The notes beneath the pieces were generated by a model, which made no database searches, was not told the DNA's origin, and was given only the letters and a program-made list of their open reading frames with translations. The translations under genes were made by a program, and so were the position numbers. From Sphingomonadales bacterium (lineage in GTDB: Bacteria; Pseudomonadota; Alphaproteobacteria; Sphingomonadales; Govanellaceae), in NCBI GenBank assembly GCA_019455285.1, contig JACFMS010000008.1, forward strand, positions 9,428-73,427: a stretch of DNA of 64,000 bases. Direction: 5' to 3'. Below are positions 5,406 to 31,471 of the stretch, piece by piece. Numbering within the stretch: the first letter of the stretch is position 1; the number at the start of each line of letters is the position of its first letter.

Positions 5406-5420
5406 GGCGCAATAGATTTA

Positions 5421-5508
5421 GTCATTGCGAGCCCGATTAGGGCGAAGCAATCCAGAAAAACAAAAAAATATGGATTGCTTCGTCGGCTTGTAGCCGCCTC
5501 GCAATGAC
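5421..5508. repeat. Palindromic repeat family A, copy 1
   Basis: An imperfect 88 bp inverted repeat. The outer arms are GTCATTGCGAG and CTCGCAATGAC; the inner arms are GAAGCAATCCA and TGGATTGCTTCG. It lies between the convergent gloA and gltA genes and can fold into a long hairpin in either transcript, so it may serve as a bidirectional terminator. Related copies are at 21506-21584 and 57401-57492. Confidence 0.85.
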
Positions 5509-5532
5509 AAGGCCTTGTCTCTTCACATACCC

Positions 5533-6852
5533 CTACTTCCGCTTCGCCACCGGCATGTAATCGCGTTGCGTGGCGCCGGTATAAAGCTGGCGTGGCCGGC
5601 CGATCTTCTGGCTGGGGTCTTCAACCATTTCATCCCACTGCGCCACCCAGCCGACGGTGCGGGCAAGGGCGAAGATGGCGGTGAACATCTCCACCGGGAA
5701 GCCCATGGCGCGCAGGATCAGACCGGAATAGAAGTCGACGTTGGGATAAAGCTTCTTTTGCACAAAGTAGTCATCGTTTAGCGCAATTTTTTCCAGCTCC
5801 ATCGCCACCTTGAACAACGGACCGTCCTTGGATCCCAGCTCATCCAGCACTTCATGGGCGGTCTGCTGCATCACCTTGGCGCGCGGGTCATAGTTCTTGT
5901 AGACGCGGTGGCCAAACCCCATCAGACGGAAGTTGTCCTGCGGATCCTTGGCGCGCTTGATGTATTCGGGAATGCGATCAACGCTGCCGATTTCTTCCAG
6001 CATTTTCAGCGCCGCTTCATTGGCGCCGCCATGCGCCGGACCCCACAGCGAGGCGATGCCGGCGGCGATGCAGGCAAACGGATTGGCGCCGGAGGAACCG
6101 GCCAGCCGCACCGTCGAGGTTGAGGCGTTTTGTTCATGGTCGGCATGCAGGATGAGGATACGATCCATGGCTTTGGCCAGGGTCTTGCTGGATTTCCATG
6201 GCTCGCAGACCGGCACGCCGAAGGTCATGTAGAGGAAATTCTCAGCGTAGCCGAGATCGTTGCGCGGATAGACGAACGGCTGGCCGACGGAATATTTATA
6301 GGCCATGGCGGCGATGGTCGGCATCTTGGCGATCATGCGGTAGGACGCCACCAGACGCTGGTGCGGATCGTTGATGTCGGTGCTGTCATGGTAGAAGGCC
6401 GATAAAGCGCCCACCACCCCCACCAGCACCGCCATCGGGTGCGCGTCGCGCCGGAAGCCATGGTAGAACCGTTGCAGTTGTTCATGCACCATGGTGTGAT
6501 AGGTGATGTCGTGCTCGAACTTGGCCTTCTGCTCGGCGTTCGGCAGATCGCCGTAAAGCAGGAGATGGCAGACTTCCAGAAAGTCGCTGTTCTTCGCCAG
6601 TTGGTCGATGGGATAACCGCGGTACAACAGCACCCCTTCGTCGCCGTCGATGTAGGTGATCGACGAGCTGCAGCTTGCCGTGGAGGTAAAGCCGGGGTCG
6701 TAGGTGAAATGCCCGGTCGAGGCATAAAGCGAGCGGATGTCGATCACGTCGGGGCCGACCGCTCCCTTATAGACCGGCAGGTCTACCGTCTTGCCGCCCA
6801 CCGTCAGTTTCGCCGGCTCTTTCGCCTGAGTCATGGTGCCGAGGTTTTTCAT
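5533..6852 (-). CDS. gltA: Citrate synthase (type II)
   Basis: Condenses oxaloacetate and acetyl-CoA to citrate, the entry step of the TCA cycle. The 439-residue product has the family catalytic regions: the histidine in [15 protein letters not shown], the second histidine in [15 protein letters not shown], and the aspartate in NVDFYSG. The length and N-terminal beta region match the hexameric, NADH-sensitive Gram-negative type. The start at 6852 has AAGGAG about nine bases upstream, better than the internal ATG six codons later. It normally follows lpxB; here it converges on gloA. Confidence 0.97.
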
Positions 6853-8506: not shown

Positions 8507-10714
8507 ATGGCGGACGACGCAGGGGAAAAAGCGTTATCAGCGATAAAACGGTTCGGCGCGCCATGGCGCGCCGCGCTTCTCGATCACGCGCACAGCCTGG
8601 CGGAAGAAGCCCGGTACGCAGCGGTCATCTGGATCGTCGTCGCCTTTGCCGCCGGCATCGGCGGTTATTTTGCCCTCTCCCGTGAGCCGCCCGTACTGGT
8701 CTCTCTTATTCCCGCTCTGACTTTTGCCGTGGCCGCCTGGCGGCGGCCTGCTGGCGTCTCCCGGTTGAGCTTGGCGCTGCTGTCCGCCGTCGCCGCCGGC
8801 ATCGCCTGGTCGTCAATGATGGCGATGTGGCGACAAGCGCCGCTCCTGGAGCGGCGCATCGGGCCGGCGGCTGTTACGGGCGAGGTCATCTCGATGGAGG
8901 AGCGGACCCGCGGCGAGGTCCGTCTGGTGATCGGCGTGCGGTATATCGAGGGTCTGGCGGCGGAAGAGACGCCCCATAAAATCCGCCTCAGCGTGCGCAC
9001 GGAGATCGGTGATGTCACGCCAGGCCGCCGGGTGCAATCGCGGGCGATCCTGTGGCCGCCCAAGCCGCCGTCGCTGCCCGGCGATTATGATTTTTCCCGG
9101 GAACTTTATTTCCGTCAAATCGGCGCCCTTGGCGTCGCGATATCGCCGGTGACGGCAACCGCAGACGGCGCAGACGCCGATGCCGATGCTGATGCCGGTT
9201 TTCGCGCTCGGACCGAACGGTTACGTTTGGCCATCTCGGCGCGGTTGAAAGCGGCCATTCCCGGCGACGCCAAGTTCATCGCTGACGCCCTGGTCACCGG
9301 CTTTCAAGGCGCGATCCCCGCGCCCGTGGTCGACGCCATGCGCAATGCCGGACTGGCGCACTTGCTGTCAATCTCCGGCCTGCATATGGCGATGGTGACG
9401 GGCATCGTGTTTTTCACGCTCAGGGCGATGCTGGCGCTTATCGAGCCATGGGCGCTGAAATATCCCATCAAGAAATGGGCGGCGGCGTTGTCCATCATCG
9501 CCGCCTATTTCTACCTTCTCATCAGCGGCCTTCAGGTGCCCGCTGAGCGCTCTTTCATCATGGCGAGCCTGGTGCTGATCGCCGTCATTCTCGACCGGCA
9601 GGCGATTTCCCTGCGCATGGTGGCGCTGGCCGGCTTGGCGTTGCTGGCGCTGTCGCCGGTATCCCTGGTCAGCATCAGCTTTCAGATGTCGTTTGCCGCC
9701 GTCACCGCGCTGGTGGCGTTTTACGAGTATATGCGTCAGCGTCGGCGCGCCGCGACGGAACGCCCGGCGACCGGCATGGCCGGCAAGCTCGCTTTGGCCT
9801 TGGCGGGGGTCCTGGTGTCCACCTTGGTTGCCGAGGCCGCCATCGCGCCGGCGGCGCTGTTCTATTTCGGCAATGTGCCGCTCCTGGGTGTGGCGGCAAA
9901 CGCGGTGGCGATCCCGCTTACCGGCAGCCTCATCATGCCGCTACTGATCCTGGGCATCGTCGCCATGCCGTTTGGCCTGGAAGCCTGGCCCTTGGCGCTG
10001 GCCGGCAAGACAATCCAGTTGGTCATTGACATCGCGGCCTGGATTTCGTCCTTCGATAAGGCCATGGTGCACGCGCCGGCGATGCCATTTGCCGCCTATC
10101 TGGCGTTGATTGCCGGCGGCGTCTGGTTGGTGGCGTGGCGGTCGCGGATTAGGCTGCTGGGTGTTGCGCCGCTGCTGCTGGGCGTTGCGCTGACGGTTTT
10201 CGCCCGGCCGGCGGATGTGTTCGTGGCCGGCGAGGGCAACTTGGCGGCGGTGCGTCTGGCCGATGGCAGCTATGCGCTGACGCCGGGGCGGGCGCAGAAA
10301 TGGGAGCGCGATCGCATCGCCCAATGGTCGGCCAAGGAGACCACGACTTGGCCGGACCACGGAGCGAGCTCTGACCGTTGGTTGAGTTGCGATGGCTTGG
10401 GCTGCGTCTATCGGCCGTCTTCCGGTCATGTCGTGACGTTGCCGAAACACACGGACGCGCTGGCCGATGATTGCCGCCGCGCCGATGTCCTGGTGGCGGA
10501 CCTGTGGTTGCCGCGCGCCTGTGTCGGCCCGCAGATCAAGATCGGTCGGCGCGAGCGGCGGGATAACGGCGGCTACGCGCTGTGGTTAGAGGCGGACGAA
10601 GTGCGGGTGGAGACGGTAGGCGATCGTCGCAACGGCCGGCCGTGGGGCCGCCGCTTAGGCGGAGAGGGTCAATCCAACTCTCGCCGTCATTCCCACGAAA
10701 GCGGGAATCCATAG
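8507..10714 (+). CDS. comEC: ComEC/Rec2 family DNA-uptake channel protein
   Basis: A polytopic inner-membrane protein of 735 residues that forms the channel for single-stranded DNA in natural transformation. It has an N-terminal membrane pair, a DUF4131-like soluble part (about 100-210) and the Competence domain with the typical NAGLAHLLSISGLHMAMV motif. Several further membrane spans are followed by a C-terminal domain that is short and lacks an obvious metallo-beta-lactamase HxHxDH motif. Around residue 222 a run of alternating Ala-Asp is encoded by a GCCGAT simple repeat. The last nine codons and the stop come from a palindromic repeat (10685-10754). Confidence 0.93.
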   Translation: MADDAGEKALSAIKRFGAPWRAALLDHAHSLAEEARYAAVIWIVVAFAAGIGGYFALSREPPVLVSLIPALTFAVAAWRRPAGVSRLSLALLSAVAAGIAWSSMMAMWRQAPLLERRIGPAAVTGEVISMEERTRGEVRLVIGVRYIEGLAAEETPHKIRLSVRTEIGDVTPGRRVQSRAILWPPKPPSLPGDYDFSRELYFRQIGALGVAISPVTATADGADADADADAGFRARTERLRLAISARLKAAIPGDAKFIADALVTGFQGAIPAPVVDAMRNAGLAHLLSISGLHMAMVTGIVFFTLRAMLALIEPWALKYPIKKWAAALSIIAAYFYLLISGLQVPAERSFIMASLVLIAVILDRQAISLRMVALAGLALLALSPVSLVSISFQMSFAAVTALVAFYEYMRQRRRAATERPATGMAGKLALALAGVLVSTLVAEAAIAPAALFYFGNVPLLGVAANAVAIPLTGSLIMPLLILGIVAMPFGLEAWPLALAGKTIQLVIDIAAWISSFDKAMVHAPAMPFAAYLALIAGGVWLVAWRSRIRLLGVAPLLLGVALTVFARPADVFVAGEGNLAAVRLADGSYALTPGRAQKWERDRIAQWSAKETTTWPDHGASSDRWLSCDGLGCVYRPSSGHVVTLPKHTDALADDCRRADVLVADLWLPRACVGPQIKIGRRERRDNGGYALWLEADEVRVETVGDRRNGRPWGRRLGGEGQSNSRRHSHESGNP

Positions 10715-10754
10715 TAAAATTAAGTGACTGGATCCCTGCTCACGCGGGGATGAC
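10685..10754. repeat. Palindromic repeat family B (dRS3-like), copy 1
   Basis: A 70 bp element with two half-palindromes. Outer arms are CGTCATTCCC and GGGGATGAC; inner arms are GCGGGAATCCA and TGGATCCC. The core ATTCCC-N8-GGGAAT resembles the dRS3 repeat known from Neisseria. It overlaps the end of comEC, supplying the in-frame codons RHSHESGNP and the TAG stop at 10712-10714. It may also terminate comEC and the convergent lexA transcript. Other copies: 12842-12912, 17075-17102 and 27959-28027. Confidence 0.9.
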
Positions 10755-12841: not shown

Positions 12842-12912
12842 CGTCATTCCCGCGCAAGCGGGAATCCAGATTCTTTGATAAAGGACTGGATCCCCGCCTT
12901 CGCGGGGATGAC
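12842..12912. repeat. Palindromic repeat family B (dRS3-like), copy 2
   Basis: A 71 bp full-length element between moaC and moeA. The arms read CGTCATTCCCGCG, GCGGGAATCCAG, CTGGATCCCCGC and GCGGGGATGAC. It splits what is otherwise a tight leftward operon and could form a strong hairpin in the moaC-moeA message. It matches the ATTCCC-N8-GGGAAT core exactly. Confidence 0.92.
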
Positions 12913-17074: not shown

Positions 17075-17102
17075 CGTCATTCCCGCGAAGGCGGGAATGA
17101 CG
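17075..17102. repeat. Palindromic repeat family B (dRS3-like), solo core, copy 3
   Basis: A perfect 28 bp palindrome: CGTCATTCCCGC, loop GAAG, GCGGGAATGACG. It corresponds to the outer arms of the 70 bp element joined directly, as if the inner half had been deleted. It lies between the convergent deacetylase and trpE genes and could act as a bidirectional terminator stem. Confidence 0.9.
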
Positions 17103-25619: not shown

Positions 25620-26651
25620 ATGGCTAAGCTTGCAACGAAGAAGATTTCCCCGCGATATCGGCCGTTAAGCCAGATCGCTACGGCCACCTATGACGCCTCT
25701 GCCGAGGAGTTGAAAACCTATTACCGCCAGATGCTGCTGATGCGCCGCTTTGAGGAAAAGGCGGGGCAGATGTACGGCATGGGGCTGATCGGCGGCTTTT
25801 GTCACTTGTATATCGGCCAGGAGGCGGTAGTCACCGGCATTCAGGCGGCCCTGAGGCCCGGCGACAAGGTGATCACCGGCTACCGCGATCACGCCCATAT
25901 GCTGGCCTGCGGCATCGATCCCAGAGCGGTGATGGCGGAATTGACGGGCCGCGCCGGCGGCATTTCCAAGGGCAAAGGCGGCTCCATGCACATGTTCAGC
26001 GTCGAGCACGGCTTCTATGGCGGCCATGGCATCGTCGGCGCGCAGGTATCCTTGGGCACCGGCATTGCGTTCGCCGAGAAATACCGGGAAACCGGCGGCG
26101 TCACCGTCGCCTATTTTGGCGACGGCGCGGCCAACCAGGGCCAGGTTTATGAGTCCTTCAACATGGCCGAGCTGTGGAAGCTGCCGGTGATCTACGTCAT
26201 CGAGAACAACCAATACGCCATGGGCACCTCGGTCAACCGCGCCTCGGCGGAGGGCGAGCTTTATCGGCGCGGCGAAAGCTTCCGCATTCCCGGCCGCCAG
26301 GTGGACGGCATGAATGTGCTCGCCGTCAAGGCAGCGGCGGATGAGGCGGTCGCCTGGAGCCGCGGCGGCAACGGCCCGATCTTGTTGGAAATGAAAACCT
26401 ACCGCTATCGCGGCCATTCCATGTCAGACCCGGCGAAATACCGCTCCAAGGAAGAAGTGCAGAAGATGCGGGCCGAGCATGATCCCCTTGATCAGGCGAA
26501 GAAGCGTCTTCTCGATGCCGGCATCCTCGACGAGGAAAGCTTGAAGACCATCGACCGCGAGGTGAAGGAGATTGTCGCCGACGCCGCCGATTTCGCCACC
26601 GCCAGCCCCGAACCCGAGCCGTCCGAATTGTGGACGGACGTGTACGCGTAA
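25620..26651 (+). CDS. pdhA: Pyruvate dehydrogenase E1 component, alpha subunit
   Basis: The thiamine-diphosphate subunit of the alpha2beta2 E1 that decarboxylates pyruvate. The ATG at 25620 has GGAAGGA about twelve bases upstream and gives 343 residues. The TPP/magnesium motif is clear ([24 protein letters not shown]...ENN). So are the phosphorylation-loop region [14 protein letters not shown] and the [10 protein letters not shown] and [13 protein letters not shown] segments. First of the pdhA-pdhB-pdhC-lpd-lipA operon. Confidence 0.97.
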
Positions 26652-26661
26652 AGGGAGGCGG

Positions 26662-27672
26662 ATGATGTCAATAGATGTGAAAGCCGGACTGAAATCGCAA
26701 ACCGTGCGCGAGGCGTTGCGCGACGCCATGGCCGAGGAAATGCGTCGCGACCCGGATGTGTTTTTAATGGGCGAAGAAGTGGCGCAGTACCAGGGCGCTT
26801 ACAAGGTAAGCCAAGGTCTGTTGGATGAATTCGGACCGAAGCGGGTGATGGATACGCCGATCACCGAGCATGGTTTCGCCGGGCTCGGCGTTGGCGCGGC
26901 GTTTGCCGGCCTTAAACCCATCATCGAGTTCATGACCTTCAACTTCGCCATGCAGGCCATTGATCAGATCATCAACTCGGCGGCGAAAACCCGCTACATG
27001 TCGGGCGGCCAGATCGGTTGCCCCATCGTCTTTCGCGGACCCAACGGCGCGGCGTCCCGGGTTGCCGCCCAGCACAGCCAGAATTACGCCGCCTGGTACG
27101 CGCATATCCCAGGGCTGAAGGTGGTGGCGCCCTATTCAGCGGCGGATGCCAAGGGGTTATTGAAAGCCGCCATCCGCGATCCCAACCCGGTGGTGTTTCT
27201 GGAAAACGAAATTCTCTACGGCAAAACCTTCGACGTGCCGGAGGGCGACGATTGGATCGTGCCGTTGGGCAAATCGGCGGTGGTGCGCGAAGGTTCGGAT
27301 GTGACGCTGGTCGCCTACTCCATCGCCGTCGGCCAGTGCCTGGAAGCGGCCGATGCCTTGGCGGCGGACGGCGTATCGGCGGAAGTGATCGATCTGCGCA
27401 CGCTCAGGCCCTTGGATCTGGAACCGGTCATCGCCTCAGTGCAAAAGACTAATCGCCTGCTGGTGGTCGAGGAAGGCTGGCCCACCTGCGGCATCAGCGC
27501 GGAAGTATCGGCGCGGGTCACCGAACAGGCGTTCGATTATTTGGATGCGCCGGTATTGCGCGTCGCCAACGCCGATGTCCCGACGCCCTATGCCGCCAAT
27601 CTGGAAAAGTTGTGGCTGATATCCCCGGAAAAAATTATCACCGCCGCAAAAGCGGCGCTCTACCGCGATTAG
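26662..27672 (+). CDS. pdhB: Pyruvate dehydrogenase E1 component, beta subunit
   Basis: Partner of PdhA. GGAGGCG precedes two adjacent ATGs (26662 and 26665); the product is about 336 residues. It has the typical [44 protein letters not shown] and [15 protein letters not shown] segments, and the transketolase C-terminal domain. Unlike PdhB of many alphaproteobacteria it has no N-terminal lipoyl domain, so the complex's lipoyl groups must come from PdhC. Confidence 0.97.
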
Positions 27673-27684
27673 GGAGACCAAATA

Positions 27685-28980
27685 ATGTCCATTGAAATTC
27701 GCATGCCGGCGCTGTCGCCGACCATGGAAAAGGGAACGCTGGCGAAGTGGCTGATCAAGGAAGGCGATACCATCGCGGCGGGCGATGTCATCGCTGAGAT
27801 CGAGACCGACAAGGCGACCATGGAAGTGGAAGCGGCGGACGAAGGCAAGGTCGGCAAGCTCGCCGTGGCGGCTGGCACGGCGGATGTGCCGGTGGGGACC
27901 GTAATCGCGGTGTTGTTGGAGGAAGGCGAGGCGGGCGTCGCCAGTCCCTCAACTTCTCCGTCACTCCCGCGAAAGCGGGAGTCCAGTGCAGAAGAAAAGG
28001 TGGATTCCCGCTTGCGCGGGAATGACGAACAAAAAAAATCCGCACCCATACTTCCATCAGCGCCGACACCGCAGCCGACCGTTCCCGCCGCCCATGATGA
28101 CGCGCGGATTTTTGCTTCGCCCCTGGCGCGCCGCATCGCCAAGCAGAGCGGCATTGATCTGAATACCCTGCAAGGCTCCGGTCCCGGCGGCCGGGTGGTG
28201 AAACGCGATCTGGAAGGCAAGGCGCCGCTGGCACGGCCGCAAGTTGCCGCCACTGCCGCTACCGCTGTCGCGCCAGCGACGGTTTATGGACCGGCGGATG
28301 CGCCGCATGAGGAGGTAAAACTCTCCACCATGCGCAAGGTGATCGCCGAGCGCCTGTCGGAATCAAAACGCACCGTGCCGCACTTCTACATGACCGTGGA
28401 CGTGCAAATGGATCACCTGCTGGCGGCGCGCAAGGACATCAACGAGGCGGAAGGATTAAAGCTTTCGGTCAACGACTTCATCATCAAGGCGCTGGCCATC
28501 GCGTTGAAGCGCGTGCCGGAAGCCAACGTACAGTTCGCTGGCGACAAGCTCTATCGCTATAGCCGCGCCGATGTCTCGGTGGCGGTGGCGATCGACGGCG
28601 GGCTGATTACACCGATCATTCGCGGCGCTGATACAAAGGGGCTGATTGAGATCAGCAATGAAATGCGCGCGCTGGCCGAGAAGGCGCGGGCCGGCAAGCT
28701 GATGCCGGAAGATTACAAGGGCGGCACCATCTCTCTATCCAACCTCGGCATGTACGGCATCAAGGAGTTCGAGGCGGTGATCAATCCGCCGCAAGCGGCC
28801 ATTCTGGCGGTGGGCGCGGCGGAACAACGCGCGGTGATCAAGAATGGGCAGATCGTGCCGGCGACCGTGATGTCGGCGACGTTGTCGGTGGATCATCGCG
28901 CCATCGACGGCGCCATCGGCGCGAAGCTCCTGACCGCGTTCAAGGCGCTCATTGAAAACCCGGCGCGCCTGGCGCTTTGA
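27685..28980 (+). CDS. pdhC: Dihydrolipoamide acetyltransferase (E2) with a repeat-encoded linker insert
   Basis: The core of the pyruvate dehydrogenase complex, moving acetyl groups from lipoyl-lysine to CoA. Domains in order are one lipoyl domain (residues 1-78, lipoyl Lys43 in ETDKATME), a linker, the E3/E1-binding domain ([11 protein letters not shown]...VVKRDLE, about 139-176), a second Ala/Pro linker and the catalytic domain ending [15 protein letters not shown]. The first linker contains about 23 residues (SLPRKRESS...DSRLRGNDE) encoded by a complete family-B palindromic repeat at 27959-28027. The frame stays open because the element is 69 bp. Linkers tolerate insertions, so the enzyme is probably active. 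Confidence 0.96.
27959..28027. repeat. Palindromic repeat family B copy 4, inside pdhC
   Basis: A 69 bp element wholly within the pdhC coding region. Left half: CGTCACTCCCGC, GAAA, GCGGGAGTCCA. Right half: TGGATTCCCGC, TTGC, GCGGGAATGACG. The left hairpin has a T-to-C change matched by A-to-G on the other arm, so pairing is preserved. Its length is a multiple of three, and the reading frame used has no stop. Confidence 0.95.
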
Positions 28981-30403: not shown

Positions 30404-30415
30404 GGGGCAAAACTA

Positions 30416-30534
30416 CCTCCCCCTCGATGGGGGAGGTCGTCCACCGAAGCGATAAGCGTAGGTGGGCGGGTGGGGGTGATGAGGCGCGCGAGACACCACC
30501 CCCATCCAAACCTTCCCCCATCAAGGGGGAAGGC
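30416..30534. repeat. Imperfect inverted repeat, family C, between lpd and lipA
   Basis: The left arm CCTCCCCCTCGATGGGGGAGG and the right arm CCTTCCCCCATCAAGGGGGAAGG are each small hairpins. Between them GGCGGGTGGGGGTGATG faces CACCACCCCCATCC, so the whole 119 bp can fold into one long structure. It fills the gap between lpd and lipA and resembles the intergenic repeats often seen in GC-rich proteobacteria. Only one copy is in this window, so calling it a dispersed family is inference. Confidence 0.65.
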
Positions 30535-30547
30535 TTAAGGAGTACGC

Positions 30548-31471
30548 ATGAGCAAGGTTGAAAACATCAGGGGGGAAGGCCCCCGTAAGCCCAAGCCTGA
30601 ATGGCTGAGGGTCAAGGCCCCGACCTCGGCGGAATTCGCCGAAACCCGCCGGCTCATGCGCGGACTGAAGCTCCATACCGTGTGCGAGGAGGCGGCCTGC
30701 CCCAACATCGGTGAATGCTGGCAGAAAAAGCACGCCACCATGATGATTCTGGGCGATATCTGCACCCGCGCCTGCGCCTTTTGCAACATCAAGACCGGCT
30801 TGGGCCGTCCCGTCGATCCCTTGGAACCGCAGCATGTGGCGGAAGCCGTGCGCGACATGAAGTTGGAGCACGTGGTCATTACCTCGGTCGACCGCGACGA
30901 TCTCGACGACGGCGGGGCAAGCCAGTTCGTCAAGGTGATCGAAGCCTTGCGCTGCGAAGCGCCCAACACCACGGTGGAAATACTTACGCCAGATTTTCGG
31001 AACAAGCCCGGCGCATTGGAAGCGGTGGTGGCCGCCAAGCCCGATGTTTACAATCATAATCTTGAAACCGTGCCGCGGCTTTATCCGACCATCCGCCCCG
31101 GCGCACGCTATTTCCATTCGCTCAGGCTCCTAGAGCGGGTGAAGGAACTCGATCCGACGATCTTTACCAAATCCGGCATCATGGTGGGTCTCGGCGAAGA
31201 TAAGATCGAAGTGCAGCAGGTGATGGACGACATGCGTTCTGCCGATATCGATTTCTTGACCATCGGCCAGTACTTGCAGCCGACGCCGCGGCATGCACCG
31301 ATTGACCGCTTCATCACCCCCGATGAGTTCAAGAATTACGAAACCATCGCTTATGCGCGGGGATTTCTGCTGGTGGCGTCCTCGCCGTTGACGCGCTCGT
31401 CCTATCATGCCGGCGACGATTTTGCTCGGCTGCGCGCCAACCGCGCCGCGCAGCTTGCGAAAAATCCATAA
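30548..31471 (+). CDS. lipA: Lipoyl synthase
   Basis: A radical SAM enzyme inserting two sulfurs into protein-bound octanoyl groups; it serves the lipoyl domain of PdhC encoded just upstream. The 307-residue product has the auxiliary cluster motif CX4CX5C (Cys46, 51, 57) and the radical SAM CX3CX2C (Cys72, 76, 79). The C-terminal RSSYHAG supplies the serine ligand of the auxiliary cluster. TTAAGGAG lies upstream of the ATG. Confidence 0.98.

Follow-up and report, generated by a model that had tools for sequence, protein, structure and literature searches.

CGTC-1 REPs, the dRS3 repeats of Neisseria and RPE-6 of Rickettsia conorii are treated as one family in the main text of Di Nocera, De Gregorio and Rocco (2013; PMC3733652). 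As described there, the family is mostly intergenic, in-frame intragenic dimers encode 20–30 amino acids, and no dedicated transposase is known. The same text suggests that REP inserts are possibly neutral in flexible linkers and loops. A sequence-only reading of the locus described below had contrasted its dRS3-like repeat with the Rickettsia palindromic elements (RPEs); with CGTC-1, dRS3 and RPE-6 in a single family, that contrast falls away. RPEs of 105–146 bp have also been reported, and a guanylate kinase that bears an RPE is translated and active (PMC2229807).

The sequence at positions 27959–28027 of the window (the whole 64,000-nt stretch of DNA that was analyzed) is CGTCACTCCCGCGAAAGCGGGAGTCCAGTGCAGAAGAAAAGGTGGATTCCCGCTTGCGCGGGAATGACG. 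It is 69 nt in length and is located inside the pdhC ORF (positions 27685–28980, + strand, 431 aa), which encodes the dihydrolipoamide acetyltransferase (E2) of pyruvate dehydrogenase as determined by Pfam. The Pfam scan shows three domains, Biotin_lipoyl at residues 4–77, E3_binding at 142–177 and 2-oxoacid_dh at 207–430, all of them intact. The catalytic DHR..DG residues show no variation in 27 E2s compared. The insert represents residues 92–115, i.e., a split codon, 22 residues and a second split codon, and is situated between the Biotin_lipoyl and E3_binding domains with a net addition of 23 residues. Both the 69-bp in-frame element that adds 23 residues to the linker and its location between the lipoyl and E3-binding domains had been proposed from the letters of the sequence; the coordinates and the net addition are exact, and the Pfam domains flank the insert as predicted. 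The insert is free of stop codons and in frame in an otherwise intact conserved protein, and it is not found in orthologues outside the genus.

The element is a head-to-head dimer of the CGTC-1 REP type on the + strand, with the tag CGTC at positions 27959–27962 and its complement, GACG, at 28024–28027. The left arm is GTCACTCCCGCGAAAGCGGGAGTCC (positions 27960–27984, + strand); it has an 8-bp stem and a GAAA loop and reads ACTCCCGC-GAAA-GCGGGAGT, followed by CCA. The right arm (positions 28002–28026, − strand) agrees with the family consensus GTCATTCCCGCGNAAGCGGGAATCC at every position and reads ATTCCCGC-GCAA-GCGGGAAT on its own strand, also followed by CCA. The arms are separated by a spacer of 17 nt (positions 27985–28001, + strand), where the usual spacer is 19–20 nt. 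The first and second stem pairs are both A-T in the right arm; in the left arm they are A-T and then C-G, a compensated pair. The tag, stem, loop, tail and head-to-head dimer arrangement match those of the CGTC-1 REP family, to which the pdhC element belongs.

The description of the element as a dRS3-like intergenic repeat agrees with its distribution, which is genome-wide and mostly intergenic. There are 67 arm matches in the 3.3-Mb alphaproteobacterial draft genome (≤3 mismatches), where the window is part of contig 12, and none to a reversed control pattern. The sister species (G001) has 78 arms, a second genus of the family (G003) has 63 and a third genus (G002) has 0; sequence was read in stretches around element matches, and degenerate copies and copies at contig ends could be missed. 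In the fetched host loci, 32 of 41 elements are dimers and nine are singles, and the dimer cores are mostly 69–70 nt. Intergenic dimers with a 69-nt core (positions 10686–10754) and a 70-nt core (positions 12843–12912) are common to the host and the sister species.

At positions 17076–17101 the host has a single 26-nt hairpin, in contrast to a full 69-nt dimer in the sister species, and L127 compared with L199 shows the opposite arrangement. Dimers appear to collapse into single hairpins, or the reverse. Two intergenic slots that are occupied by a CGTC dimer in the sister species contain a different palindromic repeat in the host (positions 5406–5533 and 30407–30548), and unrelated repeat families seem to swap for one another between genes. 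A search for a Y1_Tnp (PF01797, RAYT-type) transposase gave no match in the host and related genomes (G000–G003), with a positive E. coli control. Flanks were aligned for seven host elements absent from the sister species and for two elements of the sister species absent from the host. At these sites the sequence of the other species has usually been rewritten or is occupied by another palindromic repeat, so that no clean junction was found and a target-site duplication is not readable from these loci. In other genera the linker has diverged too far for a comparison to give the exact insertion unit in pdhC.

The insert is also present at the corresponding place in pdhC of the sister species, where the element differs by one silent change in a loop. 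The two genes differ at 45 of 1293 nt, with 36 of the differences at third codon positions, and there are six amino acid changes, none of which is in the element. This pattern shows clear purifying selection on pdhC since the insertion. The insert, shared with the separately assembled sister species, is thus ancient and not an artefact. The sequence-only reading had proposed an alignment of PdhC from relatives, and this shows that the insert is absent outside the genus. PdhC of G002 and G003, two other genera of the family, is without it; G002 has no family arms, but G003 nonetheless has 63. Since the insert is shared with G001 and absent from PdhC of G002 and G003, the insertion into pdhC can most probably be placed on the stem lineage of this genus. 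The locus represents a clean, dated case of an intergenic palindrome that became part of an essential enzyme, with the insert present in pdhC of two sister species and absent from that of two related genera.

In the AlphaFold model of PdhC, residues 87–103 and 105–139 have pLDDT values <50, and nearly all of the insert is within these segments. The folded domains have pLDDT values mostly of 82–98. The insert is thus predicted to lie in a disordered linker. Minus the insert, the host E2 linker would measure 45 aa, at the 1st percentile of 167 alphaproteobacterial E2 linkers; the insert brings it to 68 aa (69th percentile). The linker of G003 is 48 aa. It is very probable that a CGTC-1 REP dimer inserted in frame into the pdhC linker on the genus stem and was kept as a tolerated passenger. 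A small mobile or formerly mobile dimer would have been copied into pdhC in the stem lineage. The reading frame would have stayed open because the length of 69 nt is a multiple of three and the landing phase has no stop codons. A hydrophilic, disordered segment in a flexible linker would disturb neither the lipoyl nor the E3-binding domain, such that selection would have kept the gene and its passenger. The conservation of the insert and its position suggest that it is harmless or neutral. This mode of insertion is presumed, as is the presence of the segment in the mature PdhC.

The genome was also searched for further coding insertions, as had been suggested. Other element-spanning ORFs in the host and sister species look like antisense frames, and those scanned are without a Pfam match; of the copies examined in the two species, therefore, the one in pdhC alone is a credible insertion inside a coding sequence. 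The element-spanning ORFs of G003 that were scanned, aside from pdhB, also have no Pfam match, with one exception where the element is upstream of the matched kinase domain of the ORF. A class-wide peptide search of 289 genomes gave few matches, and the long-frame ones that were opened are intergenic or antisense.

The pdhB gene of G003 has its own CGTC dimer. PdhB in this genome is a lipoyl domain fused to E1 beta, and the dimer is in frame in the lipoyl linker (L012:384-450, the same as L226:1484-1550). Its codon phase is that of the pdhC insert, and it encodes a similar peptide of the pattern SSSRTRGSSAVEDLDSRVRGND. This insertion is independent of the one in pdhC. The pdhC linker had been regarded as the one place where an insert is harmless, which does not stand in view of an independent copy in the PdhB linker of G003. 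The host PdhB (positions 26572–27672) is without the N-terminal lipoyl domain and linker of G003 PdhB and starts right after their would-be end.

Other explanations of the pdhC insert were considered. That an ordinary charged linker resembles the repeat by chance, or that the insert is an error of assembly, is exceedingly improbable. The arms match a genome-wide 25-mer family, one at 100% and one with two mismatches, where control matches are zero, and the same insert is present in the separately assembled sister species. The element has a predicted fold of -47.3 kcal/mol, with a z value of -8.65 against dinucleotide shuffles, and in the predicted RNA fold both arms are joined in one long hairpin and not two. 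The usual arm has ATTCCC/GGGAAT, and the left arm in pdhC has ACTCCC/GGGAGT. This compensated pair is confined, among all arms listed, to the pdhC copies of the host and sister species; one of its two changes replaces Phe by Leu, and the other is silent (GAA to GAG). The compensatory pair and intact structure noted from the sequence are thus genuine, and a very stable fold with a silent partner change could be taken to signify that the hairpin is retained for the regulation of pdhC-lpd expression, as RNA or as DNA, from a site within the gene. Such a role is very unlikely. The stems of most intergenic copies are as intact as that of the pdhC copy; stem integrity therefore characterizes the family as a whole, and the intact hairpin in pdhC is no evidence of function. 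Hairpin-templated repair can produce compensated pairs without selection, and the pair is no proof of a functional structure. In addition, relatives manage without the element in pdhC, and the parallel insertion is located in another gene, pdhB.

It is rather unlikely, but less so than a regulatory hairpin, that the segment is useful in itself, i.e., that it lengthens an unusually short E2 linker to the normal range and aids the swinging of the lipoyl domain. The 1st-percentile length of the linker without the insert and the lack of amino acid differences between the inserts of host and sister species are consistent with such a use, and the argument is stronger since PdhB of this genus is without a lipoyl domain of its own. 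However, G003 manages with its 48-aa linker (though its PdhB retains the lipoyl domain), one silent substitution in 69 nt is too few to demonstrate selection, and linkers that are insensitive to sequence give no handle on residues. The tolerated passenger is the preferred reading of the pdhC insert.

A survey of 167 E2 linkers of Alphaproteobacteria reveals other multi-copy palindromic repeats, embedded in frame, in five further genomes. Dozens of further copies are present in the respective genomes of G022 (L031), a Sphingomonadales MAG (L052), Sphingopyxis sp. H053 (L103) and Mesorhizobium sp. AR07 (L118), and a few further copies in that of MAG PRO6 (L066). The linker of Sphingopyxis H053 has a CGTC-type dimer in a different reading frame (VAPAQAGA...PAVPASAGTT), where hydrophobic residues have apparently been replaced. 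In Mesorhizobium AR07 the PdhC linker and the PdhB linker each contain hairpin repeats, with copy number confirmed for the PdhC repeat. The E2 linkers of L081 and L095 display strong folding and repeat-like peptides; they were left out of the count because their repeats are not clearly multi-copy in the draft genomes. Independent captures thus number six or more in E2 linkers, plus one in PdhB, and come from several unrelated repeat families.

Hairpin density is approximately 5-fold higher in linker 1 (15 in 24.1 kb) than in folded domains (17 in 136.8 kb). The Poisson p value of this excess is near 1.6e-5 with the two sister species collapsed, where hairpin counts are not events. The seeds for the survey loci included the insert peptide RGNDEQKK; this peptide is in none of the flagged survey linkers, and the seed bias therefore looks small. 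The 22 parsed linkers of other 2-oxoacid E2s have no verified repeat, a control set too small for a claim of PDH specificity.

Because the same kind of event is found independently in the PDH complex of several bacteria, PDH linkers would seem to be natural traps for palindromic repeats. The simplest reading is a sieve, whereby repeats land everywhere and persist in coding sequence where they are in frame, free of stop codons and disordered. A broader proposal can be put forward only tentatively and is somewhat doubtful: the swinging-arm linkers of PDH, in E2 and in lipoyl-bearing E1 beta, may act over the long term as preferred sinks for palindromic repeat families that are unrelated to one another, throughout the Alphaproteobacteria, and the repeats captured there may be a regular source of new linker sequence and length. 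If true, intergenic selfish palindromes would be contributing raw material to an essential enzyme as it evolves.

In relation to known systems, in-frame REP capture and the tolerance of flexible linkers were already published in 2013 (PMC3733652, main text), and the pdhC case has a precedent. The pdhC element is similar to the CGTC-1 REPs of that text in its CGTC tag, 8-bp stem, 4-nt loop, CCA tail and head-to-head dimers, in its alphaproteobacterial host, in a mostly intergenic family with some in-frame dimers, and in that no dedicated transposase is known. It differs in the second pair of the left arm, which is C-G where first and second pairs are almost invariably A-T in the main text, and in its host gene, as PDH E2 is absent from the main text. 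The RPE-1 type elements of Rickettsia, compared here by description, are likewise in-frame palindromic inserts in a conserved essential protein, but they are 105–146 bp and the present element is 69 bp. REPINs, which are mobilized by RAYTs, also consist of two inverted REPs and a spacer, form one long hairpin and are present in dozens of copies; unlike these, the host and related genomes are without a Y1_Tnp (PF01797) gene. Recurrent capture of palindromic repeats in PDH linkers was not found in the literature searched, which includes the main text of PMC3733652, and this recurrence is the part worth following. The natural replicates make the flexible-linker suggestion of 2013 testable in one well-studied enzyme, and they offer a way to ask whether repeats are merely passing through or are supplying linker sequence.
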